DNA from: Nitrospirota bacterium
GTDB lineage: Bacteria > Nitrospirota > Thermodesulfovibrionia > Thermodesulfovibrionales > Magnetobacteriaceae
Length of the DNA: 32,277 bases
Assembly: GCA_015233615.1 (NCBI GenBank)
Contig: JADFXJ010000003.1
Coordinates: forward strand, 1 to 32,277
Direction: 5' to 3'
Below, in pieces: positions 1,338-11,528 of the stretch. How positions within the stretch are numbered: the stretch's first letter is position 1; the number at the start of each line of letters is the position of its first letter. The position numbers were made by a program, and so were the translations under genes. Under the pieces are notes generated by a model, which worked only from the letters and a program-made list of their open reading frames with translations, was not told the origin of the DNA and did not search any database.

Positions 1338-1500
1338 TATACACCTCCATTCTTTAATTAATCATAATTCAATATTTATCAAATGTCATGATGTGACCCC
1401 GTTAATATTCTATTACTGTAGTAAATTCATTGTGCATCTTTAATCACTTCGAAAAGTTTTGTTAAAGTAGCCTGTCCCCTTTTGTCCAAAATAAAAAAAG
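1338..1500. other. Spacer with mobile-element scar between hicB and the broken HEPN gene
   Basis: Two pieces look like debris of an insertion. At 1391-1403 the motif GATGTGACCCCGTTAAT resembles the terminal motif of the palindromic element at 662-908. At 1467-1494 the stretch GTAGCCTGTCCCCTTTTGTC is of the kind I remember next to REP-type transposase genes in related genomes. The second piece runs into the 3' end of the HEPN gene and replaces its normal ending. No transposase gene remains. Confidence 0.4.
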
Positions 1501-1737
1501 GCTTATTATAACTCCCATCCTTGCCATATCCTGCCAGAGTAACTCTTTATACTCATCTCTGACCGATTGTGGAATATTCTTAGATGCCTCTCCAATGATG
1601 TCGATTGACCACAATACGTCACTCCTTGTCTTCTTATCGGAAAGAAATGCGTTGTAATCCATGCTACCGACATAACTGTCTATGTCGGCAATTGCCTGGA
1701 GAATATCCTTTAAGAAAAGAGTATAATTCCTCTTCAA
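1462..1737 (-). pseudogene. hepT: HEPN toxin of an MNT/HEPN pair, C-terminally broken
   Basis: The first about 70 residues match HepT/DUF86: FLKDILQAIADIDSYV, then IDIIGEASKNIPQSVRDEY, then LWQDMARM. In intact members this is followed at once by R-D-V-(L/I)-I-H-x-Y-F, the R-x4-H-x-Y RNase/AMPylation motif, and about 40 more residues. Here the frame reads MARMGVIISLFLFWTKG and stops at residue 91. Both the motif Arg and His are missing, and the sequence after about 1505 belongs to the mobile-element scar. The gene overlaps the upstream nucleotidyltransferase by 4 bases. I infer an inactive toxin; a short stable remnant that still binds MntA is possible. Confidence 0.75.
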
Positions 1738-2027
1738 ATGTATACAACCTCTTTCAATATTCCGTCTTTCAGCTCAGGCCGTATTCCATTTTTCTCGATC
1801 AAATCCACTTTCTTTCTTAATATTCTCTGCAAACGACGCTCGAGTTCGATAAACTTCAAGAGATCAGGAAGCTCAAAATACTCGACAATAATATCTATAT
1901 CACTTCTCTTTTTTTGTTCGCCCCGGACAAAAGAACCAAAGATGCCAATCTCCTTGACATTATAGTCCCTGACTACCTCTGCTTTGTGCTTTTCCAGCGT
2001 TTTTTTGATCTCATCCAGTGTTTTCAT
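1734..2027 (-). CDS. mntA: MntA-like nucleotidyltransferase antitoxin
   Basis: This 97-residue minimal nucleotidyltransferase has the full catalytic signature G-S-x10-D-x-D: GSFVRGEQKKRSDIDIIVEY with Gly31-Ser32 and Asp43, Asp45. The following helix (LLKFIELERRLQRIL) and strand (KVDLIEK) with the ending ILKEVVYI are standard for the family. In type VII toxin-antitoxin pairs this enzyme adds AMP to the tyrosine of the HEPN R-x4-H-x-Y motif and so silences it. The third acidic residue is probably Asp75 of KVDLI. It precedes the HEPN gene with a 4-base overlap. Its target motif is lost in the adjacent gene, so it is now probably an orphan. Confidence 0.85.
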   Translation of the reverse strand: MKTLDEIKKTLEKHKAEVVRDYNVKEIGIFGSFVRGEQKKRSDIDIIVEYFELPDLLKFIELERRLQRILRKKVDLIEKNGIRPELKDGILKEVVYI

Positions 2028-2579: not shown

Positions 2580-5500
2580 TTACTGCCACGTGATATGTTT
2601 GGTTCGTAAAAATTCTTGTGCAGGTTTATAGCCAAACTGTGCTGCTTTTTTGCAATCATCGATAGCCTTTACGCGGTATCCCTTGTGATCATAATAGGCC
2701 ATCCCCCGATGATAATAAGCATCAGCATATTGGGGGGTTATCTCAATAGCCCTTGTAAAAGCATCTACGGCCTTGTCGTAGTCTCTTTTTCCAACATAAG
2801 CAAGTCCACTATTAAAGTATATTTCGGCATCTTTATTTTTTGAATTATTATTTTGAAATAACAATTCACCATTGGGGTCAGTCTGCGTTTCATTTGTAGG
2901 TGAGTCTGCTGCGATTATATCTTCAAGCTCTCTTACGAGCGCGCCGGCTGTAACAGAGGCGGGTTCTTCACCGAAATAAGGCTGTATCCCCATGGCTGCA
3001 AGCTGGTCAAAGACAGGGTGTAATGCCTCTTCTGGCTGCCGATAGAAAGCGCTGCCCCTTATCCTCGCGAATGTCCAGCCAAGCCTCTCTAGGATTGCCT
3101 GTCGTTCCATGTCTTCGGTGAGTTTCTCTATCGGGTGCCATCTGTCACCATCGCACTCCACGGCAAGCCGCTTGTTGTCGTTACCCTGAACAACGATGTC
3201 GATTCGATAGTAGCCGACTTTCCACTGAGTCCTAAGTCTATAGCCCTTGTTGGCTAAAATCCTTATGACTTCCCTCTCAAATTCAGATTCAGCGCGCTTT
3301 TCCTCTTGGTCAAACATTCGGATAGTCACCGAAGGATCCATTGCGTGCAGGATGAGTTCCCGTCTGAGATCGTCAGTCTTCAAGTCATTTTGTGGATCCA
3401 GGGAATGGACGACCCATTGCTGGTCTTTGGCCCGGCTGCTAGCGACATTGTATCTTTTCTTAAATGACTCAAAAGCACCCTCTCCTCTTTTGTTTAAAGG
3501 CCCCGCTCCAAAGTCCTTTCCACTGTCAATAACAGAGAGGAGCATTATATCCCGCTCGTCTCCCTGAAAATTTGCCGAGTTCCCGCATAAGATCCTGCGC
3601 TTGTCATAATCCAGCGGGTCTAAAGTATCACGTAGTTTTTTATCTATAACATACGCCTGCGATTCCCCAACCATCGATATTACACCAATGGTCGCGTTAG
3701 CGTAGGCTGGGTGCTTGCACATGGCCTTTATTAAGGCAGTTATCGTTTCCGCCTCTTTCAAATTTACCTGACCCTGAGCTACACCATTGACAGGGTAAGC
3801 TATGCAGGCCGGCGTTATGTGTGTGGAAGTGGATTCACGGAGCGGGCGTATGCGGCCATCGTATGATAAACGATTACTAAATGCAATAATTTCCGGCACA
3901 CATCTGAAATGTTCTACAAGGCAAATAGTTTCTCCAAAGGACTGCCGTGCAAGATCATAGATTGAAAAGCGGTTGTCGAACAAGCGGGAATTCGGGATGT
4001 CCTTGAGATAAGTATCTATGAGGGTGTGTATAAGTGATAAATTCTGGCCAACTGCATCCGGTGTCACCTGCTCGTGGTCCCCAACAATCACTACTTTATC
4101 GGCTTGGTACATCGCTATGAGTGCATTAAGGTCCGCCTGACTAGCCTCGTCGATGATCACAACATCGAAGTGATTTGATGCCGGATCGAAGTTCTCGCTT
4201 ACTGCCGCCAGTGGCATAATCCAAACGGGTACTGCACTAGAGGAAAGCTTCATTAGCTTTCGACTTTCATCCAGCAACTTCCATCTGATGTCAGCCTTCT
4301 GAGTAGACTTAAGTTTTTTCTGTGTGTCGTGCCAGCCGACAAGAGCCTGCCTTATTAGCTGATTGCTCTGAACCCGGCTTATCTGCTTTGCCCACGCTTT
4401 GATTGCAATAAGATCGATGGTCACATCCCTAAGGGTAAGCTTGTTCTGGTCGATCTTCCGCTGCAGAGTATGAGCATCAAGCTCGTTACGCCTGATGAGT
4501 TCCTCTGAGAGTTGGCGCCACAGCCAAGCCTGAGCCGGCGAGTTTGGAATCGATTTTGTGTTATGAGGCGAGACCCTATTGGCGATGGCCGATGCCCACG
4601 AAGGTGCAGACTTTGCGATGGACTCTATCAGTGCTTTACGCTTGTTACTGATCGGTTGTATATTGTGCAGTCTACGGGTGTAGTCTAGGGCCTGCTCATA
4701 GCAAACAACATCTCGTGATCTTATTGCAGTTAACAACCGGCAAATACATCCCTGATTTGTTTCATCATTTCCGTATTTATATAGCATCTGCTCTAATTGA
4801 TTTAGTCGTTCCTCGCATTCCTTTAGTCGCGACCGTCTTATCTGGGCCACAATTATATCAGGCAGAATTTCAACGCTTGCCTTCTCAACCAAATCGTAAT
4901 CGGCTGTAAGACTCGGCTCCCGTGGAATCGAAGAAAATATCTTGTCGATATATAGTCCAATCTGTTTCGCTCGATCTGTAAGCGGTAACCAGACAGACTT
5001 GTACCAATCGAGGCATCGTTTAATTTCGTCAACCAGCGGACGGGCCGCTTGCTCAGGTGTAGAGCCAAGATCAGAAAATACCGAACCACCTCGTGAGGCA
5101 ATAAGCTGTTCCCATATCTGCCCGATCTCTTCTCTCGTCTTTATCAGACTTGCTAAAAGATGCAATGCGGAGAAATGCTCACGCCTACTCGGCTTGCCTG
5201 ATGCTACTGATGATGTGTTGATAAATTTCCGCCAATCGCCCCGCACCATCAATTGCATAGTACCTAGTTTACCCTCATTGTCAAGATGGTTCAAAATCTC
5301 GCTTATAATCTCACACTGCTTTAAAATGTTTATTTTGTCTGACAGTGTGGCTTTAAAGTGCAGGTTCAGGACATGCTTGGAGTAAAGTTCACACGCCATT
5401 TTTATCTTTTCGCAGAGCACTTCCCATACGTCCCGGTGGGTGCCTCCCTGCATGCCGGCCACGATGGCGTAAGGCCGCCAAGACTGTTTCCTATGATGCT

Positions 5501-7793
5501 GTGAAAATTCCGTGGTAATATCATCGAGCAGTTGTGATAGGCTCTCACTCTCTACAAGGTGGTCTTTCTGCCAAAGATCACTCTTGAAGTCGAGATCCAT
5601 CGCTTGCAGATTAGATATATCTTTAATGAGAACACCAAATTGAACAACAGTTGACAGTAGCTCAAGTGAGGGCAGAGGTCGTACGGAGTCTTGCTCTTCC
5701 TGTACCGTAAAGTCCTCGTTAGTAGCATATAAAAATGTCAGTTCCTCATCCGTAAGAGGAAATGAAGATCCCCATGTAATCGGGCCCGGCAACGAAGAAT
5801 ACTGTTTTTCGTATTTGGCGACATAGCGTGCCGCATCAGCAGGAGTGAAAGACTTTCCCAATAAGTTTATCGTAATATATTCGCTCTCCAGTGCCATTCG
5901 GAGCTTTTGGGTCAGTAAACGGTTGTCTTCAAGGAGCTTCCGACGTTCCTGAGTACGTTGCTCTATAAGTTGATCGAGTGTCTGGAGGGTGTCACGACCA
6001 AGACGCGTGTTGATTTCAGTAATCGATGCTTCCAGTTGACGGCGGGAATCGCTCTCGATTCCAAGTACGGAGACGCACAGAGGCTGTAAATCCGTAGGTA
6101 TCTGGGACCTGAGGACACGGAGCGCTTTCGGCGTATGGCTTGTCACAAGAATCCGTTTACCTTGTGACAGAAGATGACCAATAATATTACCAATAGTGTG
6201 TGTTTTGCCGGTTCCCGGCGGTCCCTGTACCAAAACACTGCCGGCAACAGAAAGCCTGCGAATAATCTGCATTTGTTCGGCATTGGCCTCTTTAGCCAGG
6301 AGGATGTCCTCATCATTGATTGGCGGGGCCGTTACGTTTTTGGAAGGACTGCCGTCGGACGACAAAGACTCGTCAGATACACCGCTTGACGGTACGCCTG
6401 CAACCTGGCAAAACGCCGGTGGAAAAACCGTACGCTTTTCAATATCATCAAGTATCGATGATATGGCATTTGTGACTCCGGTAGAACGCTTCCGCACGAA
6501 AATAACAGGAGCACGCCATATTCGGGGGTAATCCTTGGTTTCATCTATATTGGGTTTATCAAAAAACGCGCCTTGGGTAGGGGAAATAGTTTGAATGAAG
6601 GCTTTCAGAAAAGCATCCGTCTCAGCTAAACCCATCGGATGATAGGGTGCATCAGATAGTTCTTTCTGGCGCCGGTTGATGCCGCTTGCATTGATGCCAT
6701 AAATGTCCACCAGGCATGAAGTATATAGTTCCGGATCTCGATCAGTGTCCACAATGCTGAATTCAGGCTTTTTCGGATCGAATGTCAGTTCTACTCTTTT
6801 TAACAAAATAGGATGATGGATCCGGACTTCGGTCTTCTCCACGTTTGAGCGAACCTTCCAGTCGAGCAGACCGTCGCCAATCATAAGTTCATAACGTTCG
6901 CTTTCCTTCTCAATGAATGAGTGCAACGCGTATACTTGTTCGAAGTATGTCAATGCTTCACGTGCAACCATCTCGGGCACAACCCAGCCGGATCTAACCT
7001 TGTTCCATTGCTGCCAAGCCTGGAGCCTATGGGGATCATCGGGAAAAAAGACTGTGACAGGCTCGTCATTACTATTAAGCCGGTTCTGACTCTCTATGTG
7101 CTTTGCCGGTTGAGCTGGGTTATCCCAGCCCGATATCAGCCATTCCATAAGCTCCGCAGGGGGCATAGGGCAAGGAGTTGTCTTAGCACGACCTACCCTT
7201 AGCTGGAACACAATCGACGACTGCTCTGACTCTGTGATACACGGACGTATTAGCTGGATTGAGGGGTGCTCCGGTAGATCTGAGAGCTTTAAAATGTGGG
7301 ATTGGTCGGCAATGTTGCGCTCTGGTCGGAATTTAAGATCGTTAACCGCGTAAAGGAACTGAAAAAGGCTTTTAAGCCTTTTCCTGAGAATATCTTTTCC
7401 ATCATTTAAATCTTTGTCATTTGCTTCTTTATCGAGGGTATGATTACAATAACTACATACTTTAGCGACAACTTTAATGTCCTTTCCGCAAGATGGGCAG
7501 AGCTTTGTATTGTCAGTAGCTTTTTCTGTTTCACTATTTATAGCAGATTCCTTTTCTATAGTGCTCAAAGCACCTGTTTTATTAAAATGCTCGCTGAATT
7601 TATTTGCAGTTTCTAAATCAATATTTTTCTTTAAGATAATCTTTTTGCCGGTAAAAAGCCATTCTAAAAAAGCATTATCGTTCCTTTTGAATAAAGTAGC
7701 TATATTATTCTTAACCGCGTCAATCGTTAAGCCATCCTTTGTTTCACCAGAAAACACTACATTATAAATCTCACTATTTCCATTTTTTTCCAT
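2580..7793 (-). CDS. Zinc-ribbon / SF1 helicase / DUF559-like nuclease / TPR fusion protein
   Basis: This 1737-residue protein is modular. Residues 8-80 form a small alpha-beta domain (YNVVFSGETKDG ... LFTGKKIILKKNID) that I remember as an N-terminal module on diverse bacterial proteins. A C4 zinc ribbon follows (Cys99, 102, 113, 116). An SF1 helicase core of the DNA2/UPF1 type has Walker A GPPGTGKT near 523-530, DEASQAD near 1211, GDHEQVTP near 1238, QGDERDI near 1408 and YNVASSRAK near 1446. From about 1504 there is a DUF559/Vsr-like PD-(D/E)xK nuclease (RIDIVV then LAVECDGDRWH). The last 85 residues hold about two TPR repeats. Such helicase-nuclease fusions occur in defence loci (for example hhe, which has DUF4011 instead). 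I infer nucleic-acid surveillance. An AGGA ribosome-binding site precedes the ATG. It follows a 59-codon ORF by 10 bases in the same transcript. Confidence 0.85.
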   Translation of the reverse strand: MEKNGNSEIYNVVFSGETKDGLTIDAVKNNIATLFKRNDNAFLEWLFTGKKIILKKNIDLETANKFSEHFNKTGALSTIEKESAINSETEKATDNTKLCPSCGKDIKVVAKVCSYCNHTLDKEANDKDLNDGKDILRKRLKSLFQFLYAVNDLKFRPERNIADQSHILKLSDLPEHPSIQLIRPCITESEQSSIVFQLRVGRAKTTPCPMPPAELMEWLISGWDNPAQPAKHIESQNRLNSNDEPVTVFFPDDPHRLQAWQQWNKVRSGWVVPEMVAREALTYFEQVYALHSFIEKESERYELMIGDGLLDWKVRSNVEKTEVRIHHPILLKRVELTFDPKKPEFSIVDTDRDPELYTSCLVDIYGINASGINRRQKELSDAPYHPMGLAETDAFLKAFIQTISPTQGAFFDKPNIDETKDYPRIWRAPVIFVRKRSTGVTNAISSILDDIEKRTVFPPAFCQVAGVPSSGVSDESLSSDGSPSKNVTAPPINDEDILLAKEANAEQMQIIRRLSVAGSVLVQGPPGTGKTHTIGNIIGHLLSQGKRILVTSHTPKALRVLRSQIPTDLQPLCVSVLGIESDSRRQLEASITEINTRLGRDTLQTLDQLIEQRTQERRKLLEDNRLLTQKLRMALESEYITINLLGKSFTPADAARYVAKYEKQYSSLPGPITWGSSFPLTDEELTFLYATNEDFTVQEEQDSVRPLPSLELLSTVVQFGVLIKDISNLQAMDLDFKSDLWQKDHLVESESLSQLLDDITTEFSQHHRKQSWRPYAIVAGMQGGTHRDVWEVLCEKIKMACELYSKHVLNLHFKATLSDKINILKQCEIISEILNHLDNEGKLGTMQLMVRGDWRKFINTSSVASGKPSRREHFSALHLLASLIKTREEIGQIWEQLIASRGGSVFSDLGSTPEQAARPLVDEIKRCLDWYKSVWLPLTDRAKQIGLYIDKIFSSIPREPSLTADYDLVEKASVEILPDIIVAQIRRSRLKECEERLNQLEQMLYKYGNDETNQGCICRLLTAIRSRDVVCYEQALDYTRRLHNIQPISNKRKALIESIAKSAPSWASAIANRVSPHNTKSIPNSPAQAWLWRQLSEELIRRNELDAHTLQRKIDQNKLTLRDVTIDLIAIKAWAKQISRVQSNQLIRQALVGWHDTQKKLKSTQKADIRWKLLDESRKLMKLSSSAVPVWIMPLAAVSENFDPASNHFDVVIIDEASQADLNALIAMYQADKVVIVGDHEQVTPDAVGQNLSLIHTLIDTYLKDIPNSRLFDNRFSIYDLARQSFGETICLVEHFRCVPEIIAFSNRLSYDGRIRPLRESTSTHITPACIAYPVNGVAQGQVNLKEAETITALIKAMCKHPAYANATIGVISMVGESQAYVIDKKLRDTLDPLDYDKRRILCGNSANFQGDERDIMLLSVIDSGKDFGAGPLNKRGEGAFESFKKRYNVASSRAKDQQWVVHSLDPQNDLKTDDLRRELILHAMDPSVTIRMFDQEEKRAESEFEREVIRILANKGYRLRTQWKVGYYRIDIVVQGNDNKRLAVECDGDRWHPIEKLTEDMERQAILERLGWTFARIRGSAFYRQPEEALHPVFDQLAAMGIQPYFGEEPASVTAGALVRELEDIIAADSPTNETQTDPNGELLFQNNNSKNKDAEIYFNSGLAYVGKRDYDKAVDAFTRAIEITPQYADAYYHRGMAYYDHKGYRVKAIDDCKKAAQFGYKPAQEFLRTKHITWQ

Positions 7794-8171: not shown

Positions 8172-11100
8172 CTACTCCACCCTGCATAACTCCTTCAAGT
8201 CCACGTAGGCTATCACTGCCCCCACGTCCATTGCCGGGTACAGGTGCCTAAGAAGTTCCATGTATTTGTTCGCCTGCTCTATGTGGGACTGCCTCTTGTG
8301 TTTGCCGGTCTTGTAATCAACGACAAGTATATGGCTTCCCGCCTTATGGCATCCCTCACGGCACTGATCGAAGATCACCCTGTCCATCCTGTAGAGGCTC
8401 CCGTCGGAGGCGGCAAACTCCTTTTCCCTGTAAACGACCCGCCCGGGTATGTGGGAGAAAAGCCCCCGAACCTCGTCCATGGATAGAAACCCGTAGAGCG
8501 TTTCCCAAATCTCACCCCCGATCTCATCGTCGTCCGGAGAATAACCTCCAGAGGACGAGGCCTTTTTCATCGCCTCAGCCAGCTCGTGCCCAACGTCAAA
8601 TGAGGCGCTTAATGAGGCGCTAAGGGGGGCGCTTTCGGAGGAGATATAATAGAGAACCGAGTGTATGTAATCGCCCCTTTGCCTTTCCTCCACGTTAAGG
8701 AGCACGTTGTCCGTGGAATGGCCGGCAGGCTTTGCGTAGTTGTAGTGTATGGCGAAAGCCTGCCCCGGGTCTTCGTAAGTGCCGAAGGAGGCGCTTGCGG
8801 ATGGAGGCGTTTCGGGGAGCGGTTTTTCCGTTGGAGCGAACCTCTCCACGGGGAGCAGGTCAAAGGGATACTTTATATTTATCCTTCCACTTTTGGCCCC
8901 GATGACGTAGAGTTCCGATTTGGCTCTTGTAAAAGCCACGTAAAGCGAGTTGAGCCAGTTGACGTTTTCCCTGGTCTTTTCCCTGTCGTAGAGTTCTTCG
9001 AGGTAACCGGAGGCATTAGACGCCATAGCCTTCGTTATCTTCAGTATCTTTACCCCATGAGCGGTTTCGTCAAGGATGTAATCGAAACCTCTGCCTCCGG
9101 GAGATTTCCCGTACAGAAGAACTATGGCTACTGGAAAACCCAGGCCCTTAGCCTTGTGTACTGTCATTATACGCACGGCGTTGGTCTTTTTGGGCACGTC
9201 AACCGTCCATCTCGAATCGCTCCTGTCCTCGTCGGATGCAAACTCCAGGAAATCCCCGATGTTATTGGTACCGGCGTCTTCGTAATTCTTTATGGTCTCG
9301 AGTATCTTTACGAGAGTCGCCTCCTCGTCGGGCATTGTGTCAAAGACCCTGAAAACCCTGTAAATTTCCGTGGCAAGATCGTAAAGGGGCAGGTAACCCG
9401 CACCCCGGAACAGGTTGTCAAAGTATTTTTCCCATAAATGAGGGTACTCCGTCTGGAAAGCTTTATACCGCGGGCTCTGAGTCCTGGCTCTGAGGAGGAA
9501 GTTTTGAAGAGCGTCCCGGTTAAACTCCACGCCTGCCATACCCTGGAATATTTGGCCGGAGCAAAACTCGACAAAGGAGAGATCGTCCAGGGGGGAGTCG
9601 AGGAATTTCAGGAGGGCCACAAGCTCGCCGGTAATTTTTCTGTTGCGTATGTCGAGGCTGCTCAGGGAGATAAAGGGTATCTCAATCTCGTTCAGCCACC
9701 CGGCGACGTTTACCACGTCGTCGTTGCGCGGGGCAAGCACGGCTATATCGCTATATGAGTAGCCCCTTTGCACGAGTTCCCTTATGGTGTTGTGTACGAG
9801 GGCCTTTTCGGGAGGGTCTGAAACGTCGTCGGGTTGTCCGTCGGGCGATATTACCACCGACTCGGCGTATCCGCTTGCTGCCGATCCCTCTCTGGGGTGC
9901 TGGTTGTAAGTGGTGAGGCCGCTCTTGCGCGCGGCTACGGACAGCGTGGGCTCCCCGGCTACGGCCTCCTTGAATACGGCCTCGTTGAAATCGAGTATAC
10001 GCCCAAGACTCCGGTAGTTTACGTCCAGTTCCTTCACGTGATGGCGGGCGGAGGCAAAGGGGGAGTTGTCTTCGAGGCCTTTCATTATCCGGTAGTCTGC
10101 GTTTCTGAACCCGTAAATGGCCTGCTTCGTATCTCCTACGACAAACAGGCTGCCTCCCTGGGAAAGTGAGTTTTCTATCAGCGGAAGCAGGTTTTTCCAC
10201 TGTATGGGAGCCGTGTCCTGGAACTCGTCTATTAAATAGTGGTAAATGGTCTCGCCTATCCTGAAATAAACGTCAGGCACCACGTCCGATTCCATGTATT
10301 CGGAGAGCCGCCTGTTGATGTCTTCGATGAAAACCTTTCCCTGCTGCGACTTAACCCTTTCGAGCGTCTCGCCAAAAGCCTCGTACGCCTTCATAAATGG
10401 TATGAAACAGGTGTGGGCATATAAGTAAATATAGCGCCTGATTAGTTCGCCCAGGTCCGACCAGGCCGCGTTTATGGCCTCGTAGGCCTCGTTTATGGCC
10501 TCGTCGGCTTTTGCTTTTTTGTCGGGCTTGTTAACCGGCGGGATAGTTAAACCCCTCTTTAAGAGGTCTACGAACTTCCCTTGTCCGATACTGGCCAGTA
10601 TAGCGGGAAACGCGCTCCTTTGGCTTCTCTTCAACCCCATCGAGGCGCTTGCGGTGGCGCTTATGGAGGCGCTCGATGACGAGACAAATGACGACGCGAC
10701 CAAAGCCTCCAGCTCCAACGACTTAACCCGCAGACGTTCCTTAAGATTAGTCATCTCGAGTGTGTACTCTTCCACTATGGCCCGCTTGCCCGAAGACGAG
10801 AGTTTTCCGTGAATCGTCTTTATTTCCTTCAGTATGGTTATGGCCGGGTCCCAGGGGTAGGCGGAGGATTCAGGCAGGTTTTCGTGTATAAGGGAGACAA
10901 CCTCTTGCATGAAAGACGCTTCCACCGAGCCCGGCTTGACCTTCCTCAGAAACAGCTCGAAAGCATAGTCCATCATCCGGCCGTTGTCCAGGAGTATCTC
11001 GAAGTCCGGGACAAGCCCCATGTCCAAAGCCGACGCCTTAAAAATGGAGGCCATAAAGCTGTCTATCGTCCTGACCTGGAAATCGGAATAGTTTTCCAGG

Positions 11101-11528
11101 ATGGAGTCTATAGCCGACAGAGCCCTTTCCTTCAGCCATTGCGCCTCACCCGTAACGAGCCCCGCGATCTCCGCAAGTTTTTTGCCGTCTCCGGAGGCGC
11201 CTCCTTGCTGAACGTCTCCCGGTCCGGTAGATTCCAGGGCTATCTCCTTGAGCCAGAGGAGGATGCGCTCTCTCATCTCCCTTGCCGCGTTGTTGGAGAA
11301 GGTTATGGCCAACATGTTACGAGGGGAATTGTTGCTTATAGCCCCCGATAAGAGGAACTGGACAAAACGCTTCGTCAGAGCATGGGTCTTACCGGAGCCT
11401 GCCGAGGCTTTTATTACGGCAGTATGGGGAAATACCAGGTTCAGGTCTTTTTCTGAAATCTCCATAGGCGACGGGCTGCTATCCAACATACTTTCAGCCA
11501 TTGCGGGCCCCATTTTCGTCATTCCCAC
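8172..11528 (-). CDS. AddA/RecB-like UvrD-family helicase-nuclease
   Basis: This 1118-residue protein is an SF1A helicase with a C-terminal nuclease, as in AddA or RecB, which process double-strand breaks for recombination. Walker A is ASAGSGKT (41-48). Motif II is LIDEFQDTAPIQW (about 430), followed by VVGDTKQAIYGFRN (about 465), the VHKAKGLGFPV motif (about 787) and YVAFTRAKSELYV (about 865). The nuclease shows GDYIHSVL, RMDRVIFD and ILVVDYKTGK (Asp and Lys near 1070), the AddA-type PD-(D/E)xK core, and appears intact. The first codon is GTG at 11528, but ATGs at 11522, 11513, 11501 and 11489 are all plausible; the stretch coding residues 1-13 resembles dispersed non-coding repeats, so Met14 (11489) may be the true start. 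Three Ser/Ala-rich inserts are unusual. No AddB or RecC partner is next to it. Confidence 0.85.
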   Translation of the reverse strand: MGMTKMGPAMAESMLDSSPSPMEISEKDLNLVFPHTAVIKASAGSGKTHALTKRFVQFLLSGAISNNSPRNMLAITFSNNAAREMRERILLWLKEIALESTGPGDVQQGGASGDGKKLAEIAGLVTGEAQWLKERALSAIDSILENYSDFQVRTIDSFMASIFKASALDMGLVPDFEILLDNGRMMDYAFELFLRKVKPGSVEASFMQEVVSLIHENLPESSAYPWDPAITILKEIKTIHGKLSSSGKRAIVEEYTLEMTNLKERLRVKSLELEALVASSFVSSSSASISATASASMGLKRSQRSAFPAILASIGQGKFVDLLKRGLTIPPVNKPDKKAKADEAINEAYEAINAAWSDLGELIRRYIYLYAHTCFIPFMKAYEAFGETLERVKSQQGKVFIEDINRRLSEYMESDVVPDVYFRIGETIYHYLIDEFQDTAPIQWKNLLPLIENSLSQGGSLFVVGDTKQAIYGFRNADYRIMKGLEDNSPFASARHHVKELDVNYRSLGRILDFNEAVFKEAVAGEPTLSVAARKSGLTTYNQHPREGSAASGYAESVVISPDGQPDDVSDPPEKALVHNTIRELVQRGYSYSDIAVLAPRNDDVVNVAGWLNEIEIPFISLSSLDIRNRKITGELVALLKFLDSPLDDLSFVEFCSGQIFQGMAGVEFNRDALQNFLLRARTQSPRYKAFQTEYPHLWEKYFDNLFRGAGYLPLYDLATEIYRVFRVFDTMPDEEATLVKILETIKNYEDAGTNNIGDFLEFASDEDRSDSRWTVDVPKKTNAVRIMTVHKAKGLGFPVAIVLLYGKSPGGRGFDYILDETAHGVKILKITKAMASNASGYLEELYDREKTRENVNWLNSLYVAFTRAKSELYVIGAKSGRINIKYPFDLLPVERFAPTEKPLPETPPSASASFGTYEDPGQAFAIHYNYAKPAGHSTDNVLLNVEERQRGDYIHSVLYYISSESAPLSASLSASFDVGHELAEAMKKASSSGGYSPDDDEIGGEIWETLYGFLSMDEVRGLFSHIPGRVVYREKEFAASDGSLYRMDRVIFDQCREGCHKAGSHILVVDYKTGKHKRQSHIEQANKYMELLRHLYPAMDVGAVIAYVDLKELCRVE

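Follow-up and report, generated by a model that had tools for sequence, protein, structure and literature searches.

The gene at positions 2,580 to 7,793 of the window, the whole 32,277-nucleotide stretch of Nitrospirota DNA that we analysed, probably encodes a stand-alone helicase-nuclease from a defence-type family that has spread horizontally, and the protein has putative lineage adaptors at both ends. Analysis of the gene brings to light a widespread family of helicase-nucleases whose core includes a domain unlike any solved fold. It also shows that a nuclease that moves between genomes can acquire host-lineage modules, one of which was attached at least twice in one bacterial family.

One open reading frame encodes six modules

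The gene is one uninterrupted open reading frame on the minus strand, without an internal stop, and stops occur throughout the plus strand of the same interval. A search of its own genome with the helicase-nuclease gene returned a single match. An earlier note, made from the sequence of this stretch, had read the protein as five modules in the order small N-terminal domain, C4 zinc ribbon, SF1 helicase, nuclease and TPR tail. The Pfam matches and the cysteine positions agree with that order, and the reported absence of DUF4011 is confirmed among the Pfam matches shown. A sixth module, spanning residues 137 to about 478, had been overlooked (Table 1). The note called the five-module order an unusual fusion. 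The joining of helicase to nuclease is not in itself unusual: a tree built by a quick method from the helicase-nuclease part includes about 75 core-bearing homologues from many phyla.

Table 1. Features of the helicase-nuclease gene and its neighbours in the window
Feature	Positions	Strand	Basis or remarks
HepT-like toxin	1462..1737	-	Pfam HepT-like 2e-10
MntA-like nucleotidyltransferase antitoxin	1734..2027	-	Pfam NTP_transf_2 1.8e-15; NCBIfam MntA 3.9e-13
Whole helicase-nuclease gene	2580..7793	-	1737 aa; ATG start at 7793; stop 2580-2582
TPR repeats and capping end, residues 1653-1732	2598..2837	-	Pfam TPR_11 1.2e-8; similar tails in unrelated proteins
Predicted MTES_1575 / Vsr-type nuclease, residues 1505-1598	3000..3281	-	Pfam PF18741 1.3e-29; conserved residues
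Upf1-like SF1 helicase, residues 503-1474	3372..6287	-	Pfam AAA_11/AAA_12; profile matches; catalytic residues
Family-specific N-terminal core domain, residues 137-478	6360..7385	-	43-row alignment; AlphaFold; no PDB fold match
C4 zinc ribbon, residues 97-119	7437..7505	-	Pfam Zn_Ribbon_1 5.8e-5; cysteines C99, C102, C113, C116
Predicted ClpS/L7-L12-like domain, residues 9-81	7551..7769	-	AlphaFold and Foldseek; Pfam and PDB profile matches
Small ORF, 59 or 74 aa	7804..8028	-	Strong RBS-like stretch; ends just upstream of helicase-nuclease start
RecB/AddA-type helicase-nuclease (P0002)	8172..11528	-	Core gene for repair; neighbour outside the system

The core joins a Upf1-like helicase to a predicted Vsr-type nuclease

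Homologues align from about residue 137 to residue 1605, and this stretch constitutes a widespread single-gene family. The SF1 helicase matches Pfam AAA_11 (1.4e-20) and AAA_12 (5.7e-13), and profile matches were obtained to the structures of UPF1, SEN1, SMUBP-2 and DNA2. A long insert separates its Walker A region from motif II. In an alignment of 50 family members, the Walker A lysine (K530) and motif II residues D1215 and E1216 were invariant (50/50). The nuclease matches Pfam MTES_1575 over the full profile (positions 1-96) at 102.6 bits against a cut-off of 38.2; the match to DUF559 was weaker (6e-7). All but two of the 50 members (48/50) retain residues E1506, D1532, E1546 and D1548, and the nuclease motif, on whose conservation the reading in the earlier note depended, is thus conserved. 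With a profile score over the cut-off and conserved catalytic residues, we assign the predicted nuclease to the MTES_1575 REase domain.

The N-terminal core domain is conserved family-wide and has no Pfam match. Its AlphaFold model, which covers residues 137-505, reached a pLDDT of 88.6 and a pTM of 0.81; five plasmid-record rows were left out of the alignment used for modelling. A PDB fold search with the model gave no match, with all listed probabilities below 0.1. The same kind of search against viral predictions returned one significant match (E 3e-4, with a low TM-score of 0.26), to the phage protein A0A8S5P0T8, named 'AAA domain protein'. This protein may be a distant relative of the N-terminal core domain.

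The N-terminus carries a predicted ClpS/L7-L12-like domain and a zinc ribbon

Residues 9-81 form a domain without annotation, which AlphaFold predicts at a pLDDT of about 90 as beta-alpha-alpha-beta-alpha-beta. The pattern of the sequence had already raised the suspicion of an L7/L12- or ClpS-like fold ahead of the search with the model. In Foldseek, the top 32 PDB matches were all ClpS, L7/L12 or mitoribosome chains, the last presumably mitochondrial L12. The best E was 5.5e-3 (none below 0.001) at a probability of 1.00, and the target-normalised TM-score for the ClpS and L7/L12 matches was 0.41-0.69. Pfam Ribosomal_L12 matched three of the 18 domain-family members (best 2.2e-5), the 1737-aa protein itself not being one of them, and a PDB profile search listed L7/L12 chains at E of about 0.05-0.2. 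Because no Foldseek E passes 0.001, the assignment of the fold rests on the agreement of these three methods. We conclude that the predicted topology of residues 9-81 matches the solved structures of the ClpS adaptor and the ribosomal L7/L12 C-terminal domain. The likeness is one of predicted fold: residues 9-81 are about 10-20% identical to ClpS or L12 and are a module of a larger protein, and the sequence match to Ribosomal_L12 in three domain-family members is weak. The zinc ribbon was matched on the N-terminal piece just under the Pfam bit cut-off, and all four cysteines are there.

The ClpS/L7-L12-like domain is also found in unrelated proteins of relatives, where it occurs alone (122-128 aa), with a zinc ribbon and membrane segments, or in a CpsD-type (tyrosine-kinase-like) kinase. 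In the host's own genome it is also combined with DnaJ and TPR; the partner domains in these proteins were recognised by eye. The domain, about 70 aa long, recurs in the host's order (L023-L028, L034, L035, L037), and plasmid matches place it in a Pseudomonas hypothetical protein and an Azoarcus YjgN-family protein (H26, H27). No other core-family member tested carries the domain, and the pair of N-terminal domain and zinc ribbon was found in no other member examined. One homologue, from Planctomycetes (L084), does have its own zinc ribbon at the N-terminus.

A lineage-typical TPR tail was attached at least twice

The TPR tail closes with the capping end AAxxGxxxAQxxLxxxxIxW, which is typical of the lineage. 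Among the loci tested, three members carry such a tail: the 1737-aa protein, L069 (genome G002) and L070 (genome G004), all from the host's family. The contig of L069 ends within the gene, which hides the N-terminus, and L070 has no N-terminal extension. By eye, other family members have winged-helix-like tails at the position of the TPR tail. In the tree of the helicase-nuclease part, the 1737-aa protein fell in an 18-row clade (support 100) and L069 and L070 in a 34-row clade (support 99). Forcing the three TPR-tailed members together was rejected (AU p = 2.5e-5). Because the carriers fall in two clades, we conclude that, on this phylogeny, the lineage-typical repeat was attached at least twice independently.

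The tail of the 1737-aa protein matches unrelated TPR proteins of relatives at 55%, compared with 36-40% for the tails of L069 and L070. This closeness accords with separate attachments. It would also, like the recurrence of both end modules across many unrelated proteins in relatives and the presence of the N-terminal pair in a single member, suit an explanation in which the ends are neutral passengers, chance fusions of lineage-common domains that fit either role of the core. We consider this possible but unlikely, given that a sparse family gained TPR tails at least twice within one bacterial family, that the N-terminal fold and zinc cysteines look intact, and that other members have winged-helix-like tails or an N-terminal zinc ribbon at the same places. 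The suggestion in the earlier note that the TPR repeats recruit a partner gains indirect support from the fold at the other end, the two attachments and the sharing of the modules with other proteins of the lineage, and we retain recruitment as the putative role of the tail.

The family is patchily distributed and partly associated with defence genes

Homologues were found in plasmid-collection records, in relatives and in named genomes of several phyla, the last from Bacillota, Planctomycetota, Actinomycetota, Acidobacteriota, Pseudomonadota and others. The closest homologue seen (G190/L181) is 42-43% identical and the others mostly 26-41%. The gene was present in eight of 20 genomes of the host's bacterial family and in 24 of 296 sampled genomes of its phylum. 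The defence reading in the earlier note assumed that homologues are not single-copy core genes, and in the host's family the gene is indeed patchy. Its nearest relatives in the tree come from other phyla and from another family of Nitrospirota. The locus is not syntenic: AddA, HDOD and orf165 lie together or nearby in five relatives that do not have the gene, and homologues in relatives occupy other genomic places. A scan of viral contigs found no relative of the protein and a phage collection gave just four weak partial matches, so as far as these two scans reach it is not a phage gene.

In a second family of the phylum, four genomes (L196-L199) have the core gene at a shared position close to KpsF/KdsA-like genes. 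The small toxin-antitoxin-like neighbours at this position vary, and the L199 copy is split over two frames with masked bases between them.

Several homologues have defence genes as neighbours. The Acinetobacter homologue adjoins BREX genes, with brxL adjacent, the Fusobacteria homologue adjoins a type I R-M system, and the Sphingobium homologue adjoins R-M genes and AbiE. Genes read by eye from their sequences place the Desulfosporosinus homologue near an MNT/HEPN pair and JetA-like and BREX-like genes, and the Halanaerobium homologue near BREX-like genes. The Fusobacteria homologue is directly preceded by a gene for a PC4/YdbC-type ssDNA-binding protein (L063 7744-7971). Another homologue (G027; L073 4258-15701) lies between Cas1-like and Cas6/Csm5-like genes, also read by eye, and from these neighbours is apparently within a type III CRISPR locus. 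Neighbours of family members matched 204 (130 proteins) and 152 (126 proteins) PADLOC families, and a control around AddA in relatives matched 44 families (106 proteins). This comparison is supportive at most: the counts are of model families, not loci, and one protein can inflate them; the neighbour distance was 4 kb for family members and 7 kb for the control; and the control came from other genomes. Taken together, the patchy distribution and the defence neighbours of homologues, the latter for part of the family only, mark the gene as a candidate anti-phage defence gene.

The AddA-like neighbour is a core gene

The earlier note had pointed to a defence-rich setting between toxin-antitoxin genes and an AddA-like gene. 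The toxin-antitoxin half of this claim stands: an MntA/HepT pair, of a common kind, is present and is the sole defence-related neighbour within the window, with the MntA-like antitoxin scoring 49 bits against NCBIfam MntA, under the 60-bit cut-off. The AddA-like protein has UvrD/RecB helicase domains, and a RecB-type nuclease motif (RMDRV...VDYKTG) can be recognised in it by eye. Because all 13 same-family genomes searched have a single copy of its gene, we conclude that it is a core gene and no sign of defence. No AddB partner was recognised among the neighbouring genes scanned. The small ORF upstream of the helicase-nuclease gene is possibly coupled to it. A family-wide search found no conserved small upstream partner; the upstream ORFs differ (PC4-like, HTH-like and others), and only one Streptomyces pair match each other.

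Upf1-like helicases and helicase-nucleases also have roles in repair or RNA metabolism. A host DNA-repair or genome-maintenance helicase-nuclease acting beside the AddA-like repair gene would account for the position of our gene directly downstream of it, for a Upf1/Dna2-like helicase class that includes repair enzymes, and for the slot shared by four genomes of another family. We judge this explanation improbable, since at the thresholds used the gene is missing in 12 of 20 family and 272 of 296 phylum genomes, homologues lie elsewhere in relatives, its nearest relatives are in other phyla and in a different Nitrospirota family, and several homologues sit in BREX, CRISPR or R-M loci.

A proposed mechanism for a probable defence helicase-nuclease

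The anti-phage reading of the earlier note keeps the support of patchiness, low identity, BREX, CRISPR, R-M and toxin-antitoxin neighbours in part of the family, and partial homology to Hhe, ProA and PDC-S37, and loses the argument from the AddA-like gene. Several observations count against it: the matches to Hhe, ProA and PDC-S37 lie mainly in the helicase and nuclease and are far under the NCBIfam cut-offs; the window itself offers just a common toxin-antitoxin pair as defence-related neighbour; the helicase class also serves repair or RNA metabolism; and the conserved slot in L196-L199 resembles that of a resident gene.

We infer an anti-invader role, together with the substrate, order of action and adaptor partners that follow. 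The Upf1-like SF1 motor would engage an invader (phage or plasmid) at single-stranded or branched stretches of its DNA, translocate, and feed the DNA to the Vsr-type nuclease on its C-terminal side. The N-terminal core domain (137-478) may serve in substrate recognition or keep the nuclease in check. The N-terminal ClpS/L7-L12-like domain with its zinc ribbon, and the TPR tail, would dock the enzyme to host proteins that locate or regulate it. A bolder version, which we regard as rather doubtful, is an immune family wired per host by swappable lineage adaptors. Both ends of our protein would then take the nuclease to a complex of host proteins, or restrain it by way of that complex, so that this wiring and not the nuclease core would set the moment of firing, with the N-terminal core as a new invader-recognition fold.

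The main mechanistic rival to this DNA-degrading model is RNA targeting, in which the protein is an RNA-targeting or abortive effector whose helicase and Vsr nuclease attack RNA. The analogy is with type III-B CoCoNuTs, for which a census predicts RNA targeting. Their UPF1-like helicase contains a large helical insert following Walker A and is joined directly to a Vsr-like endonuclease (PMC11090510). An L7/L12-like fold could likewise hint at ribosome-related partners. No McrB or McrC gene was recognised beside our gene, however, Pfam recognised no RNA-binding domain in the 1737-aa protein, and Vsr-type nucleases are classed as DNA endonucleases (PMC3710099). RNA as the target therefore appears quite unlikely, and we favour degradation of invader DNA. 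If the adaptors are functional, the family would offer a way to study how transferred immune genes connect to the proteins of a new host, and the idea of ClpS/L7-L12-like domains as docking modules beyond proteolysis and translation becomes testable.

Comparison with known systems

The earlier note had raised a kinship with Hhe, which holds as partial homology in the helicase-nuclease part; the protein is not Hhe. Both have the C-terminal half of an SF1 helicase followed by a Vsr/DUF559-type nuclease, and residues 1163-1602 match the Hhe model (NCBIfam NF042953, PADLOC Hhe) at 3.7e-45. The score of 153.9 bits compares with a cut-off of 2000, and Hhe carries DUF4011, whereas our protein has no DUF4011 match, another N-terminal domain and other ends; we therefore reject membership. 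The best NCBIfam match was to the ProA anti-phage protein (NF058533; 4.6e-57), with its best stretch at residues 1131-1615. This stretch is about a quarter of the model and the score is 193.4 bits against a cut-off of 1500, so membership in ProA is also rejected. A literature search found no paper on ProA (NF058533).

In PADLOC, the candidate defence family PDC-S37 was the best match of the 1737-aa protein (5e-55) and of all six homologues tested. The matches span the helicase through the nuclease and score 185-252 bits on a 1550-position model. The best stretch covers model positions 811-1341 for the 1737-aa protein and at most 289-1399 or 661-1533 for the homologues, so that the first 288 model positions lie outside every best stretch reported. 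Full-length matching was not seen, and we do not assign the protein to PDC-S37, on which the literature search found nothing.

Type III-B CoCoNuT CnuH-Vsr shares with our protein a UPF1-like helicase that has a large insert behind Walker A and is fused to a Vsr-like nuclease. CoCoNuTs have McrB-like GTPase and McrC partners and an SmpB-like domain, none of which was recognised at or beside the 1737-aa protein, and with no McrB or McrC among the neighbours scanned this assignment was rejected. MTES_1575-type giant proteins combine HEPN, transglutaminase, SF1 helicase, Vsr and wHTH domains, and in a survey of the HEPN superfamily a related architecture was predicted to attack invading DNA without a modification partner (PMC3710099). 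They have in common with our protein an SF1 helicase fused to a Vsr-like MTES_1575 nuclease; the HEPN, transglutaminase and winged-helix domains that they carry were not recognised in it. The 1737-aa protein belongs to a familiar type, the helicase-Vsr nucleases for which defence roles have been predicted or reported, and what is new is its unusual ends, which other proteins of the host lineage also have, and a core domain without a solved fold.
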